Source of the DNA: Candidatus Parcubacteria bacterium
Lineage (GTDB): Bacteria; Patescibacteriota; Patescibacteriia; Buchananbacterales; SURF-54
NCBI GenBank assembly: GCA_003599635.1
Contig: QZIX01000011.1
Span: 1-47,860, forward strand
Direction of reading: 5' to 3'
Length of the DNA stretch: 47,860 nucleotides
The notes under the pieces: model-generated
What the model saw: only the letters and a program-made list of their open reading frames with translations
Database searches by the model: none
Told to the model about the DNA's origin: nothing
Shown here: positions 257-23,648 of the stretch, piece after piece
How positions within the stretch are numbered: position 1 is the stretch's first letter
How the letters are laid out: every line of letters starts with the position of its first letter
Program-made: the position numbers and the translations under genes

Positions 257-466
257 ATGATTTTAGACATAGTCCAAATAGCGGCAGCTATTATTTTAAT
301 TATAATAGTTCTGATGCAAAATCAAGGCGCCGGTCTTGGCGCGGCTTTCGGCGGCGAAGGGAACGTATTCCGCACCAAACGCGGGTTTGAAAAAACTCTT
401 TTTATTTTTACCATCATTATCTCTATAATATTTCTAGCCACAGCTTTGGCCAACGTAATATTATAA
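257..466 (+). CDS. secG: SecG, protein-export translocon subunit
   Basis: Small integral membrane subunit of the SecYEG channel, which aids SecA-driven export. The 69-residue product has two hydrophobic helices separated by the glycine-rich loop typical of SecG (QNQGAGLGAAFGGEG, then a basic FRTKRG). The ORF track starts at TTG 239, but the -10 box overlaps that codon, so ATG 257 is preferred. The length is normal for the family. The next gene, an exported peptide-binding protein, follows after about 30 bases and may be co-transcribed. Family assignment is firm; only the start is inferred. Confidence 0.92.
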   Translation: MILDIVQIAAAIILIIIVLMQNQGAGLGAAFGGEGNVFRTKRGFEKTLFIFTIIISIIFLATALANVIL

Positions 467-2956: not shown

Positions 2957-3090
2957 ATGTTGATGTGGTGAAACTGGCAACCCAGTACCATACGGTACAG
3001 GGCAAGCACGCTGATAAAAATTTATGCTGAAGTGGCGGAATTGGTATACCCTGTACCATACGGTACAGGGCAAGCGCAGCTTCAAATTTA
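2957..3090 (+). repeat. Two tandem truncated tRNA-Leu-like units
   Basis: Units at about 2957-3021 and 3024-3090 each begin like tRNA-Leu (TTGATGTGGTGAAACTGGC; CTGAAGTGGCGGAATTGG). The anticodon arm is replaced by a hairpin built on GTACC-ATAC-GGTAC, followed by AGGGCAAGC and an AT-rich tail. The hairpin at 3049-3070 is a perfect 9-bp stem; the one at 2981-3002 has one A-A mismatch. Neither unit has a T arm or CCA. The genuine tRNA-Leu follows at 3096, so the three units are spaced by about 67 and 70 bases. Confidence 0.65.
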
Positions 3091-3095
3091 CATAT

Positions 3096-3180
3096 GCCGA
3101 TGTGGTGAAATTGGCAAACACGCACGCTTCAGGAGCGTGTGCCGCAAGGCTTGTGGGTTCAAATCCCACCATCGGCACCA
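3096..3180 (+). tRNA. tRNA-Leu (anticodon CAG)
   Basis: Class-II tRNA: acceptor arms GCCGATG and CATCGGC, D arm TGGTGAAATTGGCAAAC, anticodon arm CACGC-TTCAGGA-GCGTG giving CAG, a short variable arm, T arm GTGGG-TTCAAAT-CCCAC, discriminator A and encoded CCA. It decodes CUG leucine codons. It lies on the same strand just downstream of two degenerate tRNA-Leu-like units. The track ORF across it (3024-3209) is spurious. Confidence 0.95.
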
Positions 3181-3339: not shown

Positions 3340-5100
3340 ATGATTGCAAAGACAACAAAACAAGTTAGAACAGGAAAAACCAGAATGCTGTTCAGAAAAA
3401 AAACGGCGAGAAAAACGCCCGTACAAATTACCGGCCAAAAAGAGAAATTAAAAATTATTCCTTTGGGCGGCCTTGAGGAGGTCGGTAGAAATATGATTCT
3501 TTTCGAGTATGGCAGGGATATTATTATTGTAGACATGGGTCTGCAGTTTCCCGAAGAAGACATGCCCGGGATTGATTACGTCATCCCAAATATTTCATAT
3601 CTTAAGGATAAAATAAAAAATATCAGGGGTGTAATAATTACCCATGGCCACTATGACCATATCGGCGCCATACCGCACTTAATGCCCCGGCTGGGAAATC
3701 CCGCCATTTTTACCGCCAGACTGACTGCCGGCATTATCCGAAAAAGGCAGGAAGAACATCAAAATCTGCCCAAACTTAATATTCAGGAAGTAAATGAACA
3801 TTCACGGATTAAGTTAGGCGTCTTTAACCTGGAATTCTTCCATTTAAACCACAATATTCCCGATTCTTTCGGACTTTTTATAAAAACTCCGGTAGGAAAT
3901 CTTGTCCATACCGGCGATTTCAAACTCGATTATAATCCTGTTTATGAAAAGCCGGCTGATCTGAACAGGATCGCCCAAATCGGAAATTCCGGCATACTGG
4001 CTTTGATGTGCGATTCAACAGATGCCGAAGAACCGGGCCATCAGATTTCTGAAAAAGAGGTGGGAATTGAACTTGAAAAAATCTTTGAACAGGCGCCGGG
4101 CAGAATAATTATCGGCACTTTTGCCTCGTTGCTTTCGCGCGTGCAGCAAATTTTCTGGATCGCCGAAAAATTGGGAAAAAAAATTATGGTTGAAGGCCGC
4201 AGCATGAAAACTAACGTGGAAATCGCCCATGAACTGGGCTATCTTAAGTTTAAACCGGAAACCTTAGTTGACGAAAAAAACTTCCGGGAAGTGCCGGAAA
4301 ATAAGCTTATCGTACTGTGCACGGGAGCTCAGGGCGAAAGGCATGCCGTACTGATGAGAATTGCCAACAACGAGCATCGGTTTATCTTTTTCAAAACCAA
4401 AGATACGGTAATTTTTTCCTCATCGGTCGTTCCCGGCAATGAAAGAACGGTTCAGAATTTAAAAGATACCATATACAAACACGACGCCAGAGTCATTCAT
4501 TACCAGATGATGGACATCCACGCCGGCGGTCATGCCAAGCAGGAAGATTTGAAAATGATGATAAGATTGGTTAAACCGCAATTTTACATTCCGATTGAAG
4601 GCAATCACTATATGCTTCGCATCAACGGCGACCTTGGAAAAGCAGTCGGCGTTCCTGAAAATAACATCATTATCGGGGAAAACGGACGGATTATCGAATG
4701 TCAAAAAAACAGCTGCAAACTTACGGCTAAAACGGTGCCGGCTGATTACGTCTTTGTTGACGGCCTTGGCGTTGGTGATGTTTCGCAAATTGTTTTGCGC
4801 GACCGTCAGATGATGGCAGCGGACGGCATGTTGGTCGTTATCGCGACGATCTACAAAAAAACCGGCGCATTGGTGCAAAACCCGGATCTGATATCGCGCG
4901 GCTTTGTGTATTTGAAGGAAAACAAAAAACTGATTGAACAGATAAGAAGCAAAGCAAAAAAAATTATGCATGATTCCGACACCAAATCCCCTGCTTTTGA
5001 AAGTTATATCAAGGATAAAATCAGAAACGACATCGGCCAGTTTATTTATTCCAAAACTAAACGTCGCCCGATGATTTTACCGGTGTTGATTGAAGTCTAA
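3340..5100 (+). CDS. rnj: Ribonuclease J
   Basis: Metallo-beta-lactamase/beta-CASP ribonuclease with 5'-to-3' exo- and endonucleolytic activity in mRNA decay and rRNA processing. After a basic N-terminal extension of about 35 residues the catalytic domain starts at LKIIPLGGLEEVGRNM. The zinc-binding HGHYDH is at about 101-106, GDFK is further on, and the beta-CASP region includes GTFASLLSRVQQIF and MDIHAGGHA. The 586-residue length fits the family, including the C-terminal domain. Start is ATG with no obvious SD. A strong terminator follows. Assignment is firm; whether it is closer to J1 or J2 cannot be told. Confidence 0.95.
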   Translation: MIAKTTKQVRTGKTRMLFRKKTARKTPVQITGQKEKLKIIPLGGLEEVGRNMILFEYGRDIIIVDMGLQFPEEDMPGIDYVIPNISYLKDKIKNIRGVIITHGHYDHIGAIPHLMPRLGNPAIFTARLTAGIIRKRQEEHQNLPKLNIQEVNEHSRIKLGVFNLEFFHLNHNIPDSFGLFIKTPVGNLVHTGDFKLDYNPVYEKPADLNRIAQIGNSGILALMCDSTDAEEPGHQISEKEVGIELEKIFEQAPGRIIIGTFASLLSRVQQIFWIAEKLGKKIMVEGRSMKTNVEIAHELGYLKFKPETLVDEKNFREVPENKLIVLCTGAQGERHAVLMRIANNEHRFIFFKTKDTVIFSSSVVPGNERTVQNLKDTIYKHDARVIHYQMMDIHAGGHAKQEDLKMMIRLVKPQFYIPIEGNHYMLRINGDLGKAVGVPENNIIIGENGRIIECQKNSCKLTAKTVPADYVFVDGLGVGDVSQIVLRDRQMMAADGMLVVIATIYKKTGALVQNPDLISRGFVYLKENKKLIEQIRSKAKKIMHDSDTKSPAFESYIKDKIRNDIGQFIYSKTKRRPMILPVLIEV

Positions 5101-18726: not shown

Positions 18727-19664
18727 TAGAAATGCGACATAGAGTGATATAATTATAAAGTTCTAACTAAGTAATTATAATCAAAACTATGCCGCACTAT
18801 AATTCTATCACAAAGATTAAGATTTGTTGGAGTCTTTACCAAAACATGGTATCTCCAGAAGAAATACCTCAGCAGTTAGGAATTCATAGGGCGACAGTTT
18901 ACCGTTGGCTAAAAGGCATTAAATTGAAAGGAATTAATAAATTCATTCGGGATTACAAACAAGCCAAGAAAGGCAGACGGCAACCGAGAAAAACCCATCC
19001 GATAATTAAGGCTAGAATCTACCGAATTAGAAAAGAAAAACACGATTGTTGCGGTGAAAAGATTAAATATTTTCTTAAAACAGAATGCAGACAAATAGTT
19101 TCGGTTTCCACCATTTATCGGATTTTAAATGAAAAATACCAATTAAGCTCAAAGTGGAAGAAATATTGCAAGCGAGGACATCTCAAAAAAGGCGAAAAGC
19201 CGAGAGAATCTATTCAAACTGACACGGTAGACTTAGGAGAACTATTTGCTTTTAATGCTATTGATACTTTTACCAAGGAAGCTGCAGTCATCATCAAACC
19301 AGCATTAGACGCCGCTTTCGCCGGCAGGCAAGCACTCAAAGAACATTTAAGTTTTTTTGAAAGGGTTGATCATATCCAGAAAGACGGCGGTTCGGAATTC
19401 AAAGCGGAGTGGCAAGCTTATGCCAAAAAACACATTTCCAGTATCAGAACGGCGCGACCTTACAAGAAAAACGAACAGGCATTTATTGAAAGATTCAACG
19501 GCATCTTGCGAAAAGAGTGCCTGGGCTATCTGACCTACAAGAAAAAAGACTTAAAAACACTCCAAGAAAAAGTTAATCAATACCTTGATTATTATCATAA
19601 CCAAAGGCCCCATCTCTCGCTAGGGATGAAAACACCTAAGGAATTCGCTATGTCACATTTGACA
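18727..19664 (+). mobile_element. IS481-like insertion sequence
   Basis: About 940 bp with a single transposase ORF. Imperfect terminal inverted repeats were found by eye: left AAATGCGACATAGAG (18730-18744) against right CGCTATGTCACATTT (19646-19660), matching at 13 of 15 positions. The right end closes with TTTGACA, giving a TGTC-type terminus. The transposase stop lies inside the right repeat. No clear target duplication was seen. Confidence 0.75.
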
Positions 19665-19667
19665 TGA
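18789..19667 (+). CDS. IS481-like transposase
   Basis: DDE recombinase of 292 residues. An N-terminal helix-turn-helix (PEEIPQQLGIHRATVYRWLKG, residues 21-41) is followed by a second helical region and an rve catalytic core with D in QTDTVDLGE, D in QKDGGSEFKAEW and E in NEQAFIERFNGILRKE, then the usual YLDYYHNQRPH. All three acidic residues are present and the ORF is intact, so the element may be active. It opens the accessory island that contains the ankyrin genes. Confidence 0.92.
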   Translation: MPHYNSITKIKICWSLYQNMVSPEEIPQQLGIHRATVYRWLKGIKLKGINKFIRDYKQAKKGRRQPRKTHPIIKARIYRIRKEKHDCCGEKIKYFLKTECRQIVSVSTIYRILNEKYQLSSKWKKYCKRGHLKKGEKPRESIQTDTVDLGELFAFNAIDTFTKEAAVIIKPALDAAFAGRQALKEHLSFFERVDHIQKDGGSEFKAEWQAYAKKHISSIRTARPYKKNEQAFIERFNGILRKECLGYLTYKKKDLKTLQEKVNQYLDYYHNQRPHLSLGMKTPKEFAMSHLT

Positions 19668-20493: not shown

Positions 20494-21465
20494 ATGAAAA
20501 AGGGAAAAGGTCCAGTCGTCGTAGCGGCAATTGCTGCCTTTGCCTTAGTTTTATCCTGTTTTATTTTTTCGGGTTCAGAAGATGCAAACAAAGCGTCAAA
20601 AACCGCACATAACGATTATGAAAAAGCCACGGAAATCTGGCTTGGCACCGGAGCAAAAATTGATGAACATAACGATTGGGGCAAAACGCCGCTGATAGAG
20701 GCTGTTGAAGGCGGAAATGCGCAATTTGTTTCGGCGCTGCTTGACGCCGGAGCGAAAATTGACAAACAAGGTTATTCTGGCGACACCGCTCTAATAACTG
20801 CTGTAAGGCAAGGAAACGAAGAACTTGTTTCGGTCAATATAAGGCCTAGGGACAATACGGCGCTAATAACTGCAGTATGGGAAGAAAATACGGGGATTGT
20901 TTCTTTACTGATCAATGCCAATGCTGATGTCAATATGAAAAACTTCTCAAGTGAAACGGCTCTAAGTATAGCAGCCAAGCGGGAAAATTTACCAATAATG
21001 AAATTATTGATTGATGCCGGTGCAAAAGCTGATTTTCTAGCTGATACAATATTTTCAGAGCGCCAGGAGGAGAAGCTTGTCGCGACCTTAGTCAGTGCCG
21101 GCGCGTATGTTGATCGCCTTCTTTATGAAAATGCGGATTATGAAACCCAAAAAGCTATCCTTCAAGACTGCCTGGTAAATGCAATTTTGGATGGCAAAAC
21201 CGATGATGTTCGTTATTTACTAAATAATGGAGGAGATCCAGTAATTCCAGGCTCTTCAGGAAAAATCCCCTTGAAATTGGCACTGCAACATCGGAAAAAA
21301 AATATCAGGGATATTATTATCCAAGACTGTTTTTTTTCAGCACTGCGGACAGGGAAAATTGAAGCCGTTCAAATCTTGATGGATCATGGTGTAAATCCGA
21401 AAGACTCGGGCTTATCCGACCAGGAAATATGCGGGATAATGGCCAGACTTGAATTAAAGTACTGA
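20494..21465 (+). CDS. Membrane-anchored ankyrin-repeat protein 1
   Basis: A hydrophobic N-terminal segment (residues 8-26, with a possible lipobox VLSC) anchors about six to seven ankyrin repeats with the usual G-TPL-A...G...V..LL..GA pattern (GKTPLIEAVEGGNAQFVSAL). One repeat is shortened at SVNIRPRDNTALITAV, as if a partial deletion joined two repeats. The C-terminal third (DCLVNAILDGKTDDVRYLL, IPLKLALQH) is clearly homologous to the second ankyrin protein at 22383. The repeats would face outside the cytoplasm and mediate protein binding; the partner is unknown. Confidence 0.85.
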   Translation: MKKGKGPVVVAAIAAFALVLSCFIFSGSEDANKASKTAHNDYEKATEIWLGTGAKIDEHNDWGKTPLIEAVEGGNAQFVSALLDAGAKIDKQGYSGDTALITAVRQGNEELVSVNIRPRDNTALITAVWEENTGIVSLLINANADVNMKNFSSETALSIAAKRENLPIMKLLIDAGAKADFLADTIFSERQEEKLVATLVSAGAYVDRLLYENADYETQKAILQDCLVNAILDGKTDDVRYLLNNGGDPVIPGSSGKIPLKLALQHRKKNIRDIIIQDCFFSALRTGKIEAVQILMDHGVNPKDSGLSDQEICGIMARLELKY

Positions 21466-22382: not shown

Positions 22383-23648
22383 ATGAAAAAGGGAAACGGT
22401 TACAAGGCAGTAGTCGCGGTCGCTGTTGTCGGAATAATTATAGCAGCAGCGATTCTTATTCCGGGTGTAACATGGTTAAAAAGGTCGGCAACATCAGGAT
22501 ATGCGAAAAATATCGACGCCTGGATTGAAAAAGGTGTCCGACTCGACGCTGAGGATAACTTCGGCAAAACTGCGCTCATGATGGCCGTAGAGGCGGAAAA
22601 TACCGAGCTTGTTCTTGTCCTCCTTAAGGCCGACGCAGACATTAACCATATAAACAGGTATGGAAATACTGCGTTAAGAACCGCTGTAATGCAGGGAAAC
22701 GTAAAACTTGTCTATCAGCTAATCAAGGCAAGCGCCAAGGTCAATAACGGCAGATCAGCTCTTCTAACCGCCGTTTCTTCAGAAGATTTGCCAATCATTG
22801 ATTTATTGATCGACAATAACGCCAACCTTGATGTTATTGAAGGAAATGATACACTGCTTTCGGCGGCTGTAAAAACAGGCAACGAAGAAGTAGTTTCCAG
22901 GCTGCTCAATGCCGGAGCCCGTATTGATATGACAGATCCTTACGGACAAACAGCGCTTCATGTCGCCTCCGAATTCGGTCATTTGCCAATCGTTAATTTA
23001 TTGATTGAAAATGACGCGAATCTTGACGCAACGGACAGCAATGGCATCACGCCGCTGATGGCAGCTGTCAGTAGAAAAAACACAGCAATTGCTTCCGCGC
23101 TTATCAAAGCCGGTGCGGATATCAGCCCAAGGTCTCCAGGAGGAACTGCCTTATTAATCGCGGCTCAATTAGAACATCTGCCGACGGTTAAACTATTGGT
23201 TGAAGCCGGGTCGGAGTTAGATATTAAAAATGATGAAGTAACGTCTGTTCTGATATGGGCTGTAAAAAAAGGACATACAAAACTTCTTACTACCTTGCTT
23301 TATGCCGGCGCAAACACCAATCGATATCTTTACCAAATGGCTGACTGCCGGGTAAAAAAGGTAATGATACAGGATTGCCTGACAAGTTCAATAATCAAAG
23401 GCAATACTGAAAATATCAAGTTCTTTTTGAATGAAGGAGCTGATGTTACGGTTCGTGACACTTTCGGAAGAATACCCCTGAAATTGGCACTCGAGCAAGG
23501 CAAGGGAGAGGTAAGACACATTGTAGTTCAAAGCTACTTCTTTGAAGAATTAAAGCACGGAAAAGTTGCAAATAAAGAGTGGCTGGATTGGGACGGCGAC
23601 GCAAGAGAATTCGGTTTTCCGGAAAACATAACCGCCATGAAACATTAA
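22383..23648 (+). CDS. Membrane-anchored ankyrin-repeat protein 2
   Basis: The 421-residue paralogue of the protein at 20494. The N-terminal anchor is residues 8-31 (KAVVAVAVVGIIIAAAILIP). About nine ankyrin repeats follow (GKTALMMAVEAENTELVLVL, GQTALHVASEFGHLPIVNLL, GGTALLIAAQLEHLPTVKLL), then a C-terminal region shared with protein 1 (DCLTSSIIKGNTENIKFFL, IPLKLALEQ). The last repeat differs from that of protein 1. Leader and first codons (AACAAGGAGAAA, ATGAAAAAGGGAAA) are nearly identical to those of protein 1, evidence for duplication. Ligand unknown. Confidence 0.88.
   Translation: MKKGNGYKAVVAVAVVGIIIAAAILIPGVTWLKRSATSGYAKNIDAWIEKGVRLDAEDNFGKTALMMAVEAENTELVLVLLKADADINHINRYGNTALRTAVMQGNVKLVYQLIKASAKVNNGRSALLTAVSSEDLPIIDLLIDNNANLDVIEGNDTLLSAAVKTGNEEVVSRLLNAGARIDMTDPYGQTALHVASEFGHLPIVNLLIENDANLDATDSNGITPLMAAVSRKNTAIASALIKAGADISPRSPGGTALLIAAQLEHLPTVKLLVEAGSELDIKNDEVTSVLIWAVKKGHTKLLTTLLYAGANTNRYLYQMADCRVKKVMIQDCLTSSIIKGNTENIKFFLNEGADVTVRDTFGRIPLKLALEQGKGEVRHIVVQSYFFEELKHGKVANKEWLDWDGDAREFGFPENITAMKH

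Follow-up and report, generated by a model that had tools for sequence, protein, structure and literature searches.

The window, a 47,860-nucleotide stretch of contig QZIX01000011.1 from a Candidatus Parcubacteria bacterium, carries an intact tRNA-Leu(CAG) gene that is followed by a gene for Ribonuclease J and preceded by two tRNA-Leu-like units in tandem (Table 1). This tandem arrangement, described in a first-pass annotation, was recovered, and the start-to-start spacings given there, 67 nt from unit 1 to unit 2 and 70 nt from unit 2 to the intact tRNA-Leu(CAG), were confirmed. In both units, a tRNA-Leu 5' part comprising the 5' strand of the acceptor and the D-arm is followed by a 22-nt palindrome, whose 9-nt arms enclose an ATAC loop, at the edge of the D-loop; tRNA-like sequence then resumes for 10–14 nt and stops. 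Because the resumed sequence is anticodon-arm-like, the units are interrupted 5' halves and not merely acceptor and D-arm sequences. The order of acceptor, D-arm, and hairpin reported earlier stands, amended by the 22-nt length of the palindrome and by the tRNA-like sequence beyond it.

With the palindromes removed, the alignment score is 19 for unit 1 against Leu(CAG), where the best of 500 shuffles reached 9, and 18 for unit 2 against Leu(UAG), where the best shuffle reached 10. Compared directly, the 5' parts of the two units are the same at just 15 of 22 positions, below the identity of each to its closest gene (Table 1). These unlike 5' parts, one resembling Leu(CAG) and the other Leu(UAG), rule out a simple recent duplication, which had been suggested as the origin of the units, and a failed duplication alone would leave both the unlike origins and the precise palindromic insertions unexplained. 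The hairpin had been described as kept in both copies. Both do have the palindrome, but only unit 2, which forms a strong hairpin, folds better than shuffles (z = -4.05, 0/200), whereas unit 1, in which the arm CCCAGTACC carries an A/A mismatch, folds no better than they do (z = -0.28, 68/200). Neither unit was scored as a tRNA cloverleaf by ARAGORN or Rfam. Over the whole window, tRNA was the sole Rfam match, with no match to Intron_gpI (group I intron). No ORF lies between the units and the intact tRNA-Leu(CAG), neither an integrase gene nor a nuclease gene or remnant was seen in either unit, and no 3' half was found downstream of the intact gene in the window. A consensus scan revealed no promoter-like site on the + strand in the scanned stretch upstream of unit 1. 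Elsewhere, the window holds a transposase-like ORF with an integrase core domain (PF13683) at 18789–19667 and a gene for an ankyrin-repeat protein at 22383–23648, with a shorter gene, similar by eye, at 20494–21465.

Table 1. Features of the tRNA-Leu(CAG) locus in the window and of two nested tRNA loci elsewhere in the same genome (G000)
Feature	Position	Strand	Remarks
Unit 1, tRNA-Leu 5' part (acceptor 5' strand and D-arm)	2959–2980	+	19/22 to Leu(CAG), closest
Unit 1, palindrome CCCAGTACC-ATAC-GGTACAGGG	2981–3002	+	one A/A mismatch
Unit 1, tRNA-like stretch past palindrome (start of anticodon arm)	3003–3012	+	by alignment; A/T-rich spacer up to 3025
Unit 2, tRNA-Leu 5' part	3026–3048	+	21/23 to Leu(UAG), closest; 17/23 to adjoining Leu(CAG)
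Unit 2, palindrome CCCTGTACC-ATAC-GGTACAGGG	3049–3070	+	perfect 9-bp arms
Unit 2, tRNA-like stretch past palindrome, ends in anticodon loop	3071–3084	+	by alignment; spacer up to 3095
Intact tRNA-Leu(CAG)	3096–3180	+	ARAGORN, Rfam
Ribonuclease J gene	3340–5100	+	downstream of intact tRNA-Leu(CAG)
L323, nested tRNA-Ile(UAU)	G000:C10:17300–18700		outer tRNA-Ile halves at C10:17448 and 17656
L219, nested tRNA-Gly(UCC)	G000:C4, around 262–334	-	

Recurrence of interrupted tRNA sequences

The gene for RNase J is present in 11 of the 12 genomes of the order and is adjoined by tRNA-Leu(CAG) in nine of these 11, the genome of the window being included in both counts. Units are absent from this locus in the nearest relatives; interrupted tRNA-Leu 5' parts with different inserts were found at the RNase J locus of two further genomes of the order. 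In G228 (L234/L250), a tRNA-Leu 5' part has, at the same site, a long insert with 16-nt inverted ends and a GTAGAC repeat on either side. Among the 381 genomes of the class, a tandem D-arm pattern gave nine matches in eight genomes (control, 0), six of which have a hairpin at the edge of the D-arm. A D-arm-plus-C pattern, for which no second tRNA is needed, gave 18 matches in 15 of the 381 genomes, and 16 of these matches, in 13 genomes, are units. Each of the 16 is followed, 61–396 nt downstream and on its own strand, by an intact tRNA-Leu, with five anticodons represented, and all have the insert at the same D-loop edge. The hairpin sequence is alike within one genome and usually different between genomes; in G165, three units that precede three different tRNA-Leu genes have a nearly identical hairpin. 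The unit arrangement thus recurs beyond the window, in many genera of these ultra-small bacteria, contrary to the lack of recurrence in relatives that the first-pass annotation had named as one half of its refutation.

The insertions can be clean. Excision of a 20-nt palindrome, the CCTGCC type described below, from other tRNA units leaves exact identity to a tRNA over 31, 45, 30, and 42 nt. G038 has two copies of this palindrome around an intact Leu(CAA): on one side it interrupts a 5' half at the D-loop edge, and on the other a 3' half at the T-loop edge. G165 likewise has a 3' half with this palindrome at the T-loop edge. Arg and Gly 5' halves are also interrupted in G057. At locus L238 of the same genome, an intact tRNA-Leu(CAG) lies between the inverted repeats CCCCGACACCAA and TTGGTGTCGGGG, preceded by a 5' half and followed by two 3' halves in tandem; leader and trailer repeats of this kind were found also at L239, L240, L288, and L294. 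The tandem 3' halves at L238 have no palindrome.

In the genome of the window itself, partial copies of the adjoining gene, on the same strand, flank seven of the 30 tRNA genes. A foreign-flank control was positive in 6 of 240 cases, most of them the same real copies in shared neighborhoods. One tRNA-Ile(UAU) is nested in an outer tRNA-Ile(UAU) copy that is split at the anticodon, position 35/36, by an insert of 172 nt. The rejoined outer copy folds as a complete tRNA with its own, different acceptor stem of seven pairs (GGGCGCG/CGCGCCC) and one mismatch in the anticodon stem. A tRNA-Gly(UCC) similarly lies inside an outer tRNA-Gly copy split at 35/36, where the insert ends are TCCCGCA and TGCGGGA. 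A tRNA-Val is followed 36 nt downstream by a GIY-YIG gene and then by a tRNA copy with a D-loop hairpin, and a tRNA-Gly(GCC) is accompanied by a 5' half that has a D-loop hairpin and ends at the anticodon. The nested tRNAs resemble the split and intron-containing tRNAs of Archaea in being interrupted in the anticodon loop, but differ in that the insert in tRNA-Ile holds a second complete tRNA with the same anticodon; from the sequence, the outer tRNA-Ile copy may be read as a split tRNA.

GIY-YIG genes and dispersed palindromes

A gene with a GIY-YIG domain is absent from the units of the window but present at related loci. A small GIY-YIG ORF separates the interrupted tRNA-Leu part from the intact gene at Leu(CAA) of G058, Leu(GAG) of G057, and Leu(CAA) of G038, where it is frameshifted; in G058 and G057 its end abuts or overlaps the intact tRNA. 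The same order of interrupted part, GIY-YIG ORF, and intact tRNA is found at Gly of G057 and, on contigs that had been picked for holding palindromes or transposase genes, at Gly of G741 and Asp of G740; the tRNA-Val locus in the genome of the window shows it mirrored. Four proteins tested from interrupted-tRNA loci match Pfam PF01541 with E values of 6e-13 to 1e-15, as does the protein from the tRNA-Val locus described above (E = 5e-11). In about 1 Mb from three genomes, a tRNA is found less than 500 nt from five of the 11 GIY-YIG ORFs, compared with 5.2% by random placement, a count that comes partly from loci picked by pattern match. Most of the units found have no nuclease gene. In the inserts that were read, no integrase was seen and the ORFs found were GIY-YIG. 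In G116, a short reading frame past the unit resembles, by eye, the start of a GIY-YIG protein.

These genes resemble free-standing GIY-YIG homing endonuclease genes (PF01541) in that small GIY-YIG proteins are encoded beside a presumed target and nuclease-less derivatives would be expected. They differ in being flanked by a displaced, hairpin-bearing tRNA part at one end and by an intact tRNA at the other. No paper on nested tRNAs with GIY-YIG genes in Patescibacteria was found in the open-access literature.

The palindrome of the window occurs in its own genome only as the two unit copies, even with up to three mismatches allowed. In a scan of 257 billion bases, GTACCATACGGTACAGGG was found in 25 stretches, mostly from Patescibacteria and Omnitrophota, where, by our own arithmetic, an 18-mer would be expected about 7.5 times if base composition were even. 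Among 17 genomes picked for having the palindrome, YGTACCNNNNGGTACR has 62 sites compared with five for the reversed control, and genomes with one copy often hold more. The GTACC-type sites are intergenic hairpins and terminator-like stems, some within 16S and 23S rRNA and others near other RNA genes, and the stems around them are longer than those of permuted flanks (4.74 versus 3.46, sd 0.19). Palindromes of this type were seen within the 23S and 16S rRNA genes of other Patescibacteria (L009, L120, and L121). The hairpin was also considered as a mere stable RNA tip, of the kind that exists in 16S and 23S rRNA, but this leaves the tRNA halves unexplained. Insertion sequences reported in rRNA genes of CPR bacteria (PMC11270868) belong to the same bacterial group, include short ORF-less inserts at the tops or bases of stem-loops, and in some cases have GIY-YIG; they differ in being sited in rRNA. 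In viral contigs, the unit pattern had no match, and CTGTACCATACGGTACAG had one, near chance level by our own arithmetic.

A second palindrome, the CCTGCC type CCTGCCTGCCGGCAGGCAGG, is dispersed: G057 has 40 copies of its 18-nt core, and the other genomes searched have at most 13. The 40 copies in G057 were counted as CTGCCTGCCGGCAGGCAG, for which the control gave none in all ten genomes. GTACC and CCTGCC palindromes both occur away from tRNAs as well, and the preference of the CCTGCC type for hairpin loops is weak (3.23 versus 2.83 for permuted flanks, sd 0.19). No paper describing the CCTGCC palindrome was found in the open-access literature. The palindromes resemble REP sequences and their RAYT transposases (PMC3733652) in being short, dispersed, and without visible target duplication, but no GTAG/CGTC-tagged family was recognized here. 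A RAYT/REP origin was rejected: Y1 transposase loci have their own hairpins in places, and the GTACC-N4-GGTAC hairpin was found at none of 31 such loci in 13 genomes, including the single Y1 locus of the genome of the window. Snap-back copying of D-loop sequence into the palindrome was considered because GGCAG and CTGCC are alike, and was dropped because the hairpins of other genomes are unrelated.

Origin and significance of the units

Of the three origins offered by the first-pass annotation, an integration-site remnant is the best supported: many genomes combine a partial copy, an insert, and an intact tRNA, and some of them have a nuclease gene in between. We think it fairly likely that the two units are displaced, interrupted tRNA-Leu 5' halves that small elements left behind on inserting twice in succession into a tRNA-Leu locus, and the elements behind such tRNA relics are probably linked to GIY-YIG nucleases. 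From these arrangements we infer element mobility, an order of events, and a role for the nuclease. Insertion would take place at a hairpin loop (D, anticodon, or T) of the tRNA gene, tRNA sequence supplied or duplicated by the insert would leave one gene intact, and the GIY-YIG nuclease would open, or would once have opened, the target. ORF-less units such as the two in the window would have lost the nuclease gene or be non-autonomous, and unit 1, which is outermost and has the decayed palindrome, would be the older and unit 2 the younger. Because the units of the window and most others are without a nuclease gene, GIY-YIG may be a passenger, and because the GTACC and CCTGCC palindromes are also found away from tRNAs, the palindrome may be a repeat in its own right that inserts into tRNA relics.

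The main rival explanation is partial duplication with independent palindrome insertion, in which replication slippage would have produced partial tandem duplications of tRNA-Leu that were later struck by dispersed REP-like palindromes favoring hairpin loops, with no dedicated tRNA-targeting element and with the nuclease genes as incidental neighbors. The dispersal of the palindromes well beyond tRNAs, the long stems around GTACC-type sites, and the palindrome-free tandem 3' halves at L238 are consistent with it. We nevertheless regard it as unlikely, given that the insert is at the same D-loop edge upstream of tRNA-Leu in every one of the 16 units, that three tRNA-Leu loci of one genome share nearly one hairpin, that nuclease genes abut the intact tRNA, and that the CCTGCC type shows so little preference for hairpin loops. 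Less likely than this is a functional leader, in which the tRNA-Leu-like 5' half and hairpin would be transcribed and would regulate or process the downstream tRNA-Leu. Such a role would suit the strong fold of unit 2, the invariable position of units upstream of tRNA-Leu on the same strand, and a hairpin whose position is constant while its sequence changes, but it is made improbable by the poor fold of unit 1, the lack of a promoter-like site in the scanned stretch, the variable distance from unit to tRNA, and the sparse distribution, with none in the nearest relatives and units in about 13 of the 381 class genomes by the strict pattern. Similar interrupted parts at Gly, Asp, Arg, and Val, and as 3' halves downstream, also argue against it. 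The related proposal of a conserved hairpin under selection, or of a tRNA-derived small RNA, is not supported, in view of the same variable distance and absence from the nearest relatives, of hairpins that usually differ between genomes, and of the mismatch in unit 1.

An insert with a partial tRNA copy at one end and a complete one at the other is the classic mark of integrative elements in tRNA genes (PMC9897764), and both copies do flank the inserts here, as expected if a conventional integrase-borne island had left the units as an att-site relic at tRNA-Leu. Published archaeal elements of this kind are 9–23 kb (PMC9897764), whereas the inserts here measure only tens to hundreds of bases, carry GIY-YIG or nothing, with no integrase gene within those read, and displace 5' halves that hold a palindrome inside. 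We consider such a relic highly improbable.

Returning to insertion by small elements, we suggest more tentatively that the elements could form an undescribed class of very small Patescibacteria elements that invades tRNA hairpin loops (D, anticodon, and T), carries or duplicates tRNA sequence so as to leave an intact tRNA, and spreads with stand-alone GIY-YIG nucleases; some of the split outer tRNAs may still be joined as RNA. Split and nested tRNA copies of the kind described here are overlooked or mislabeled by tRNA finders. If such a class exists, it would provide a likely role and target for the small stand-alone GIY-YIG proteins found here and would explain the tRNA fragments in these genomes. 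It would also represent a route by which parasitic DNA enters essential tRNA genes of strongly reduced genomes while the host survives.
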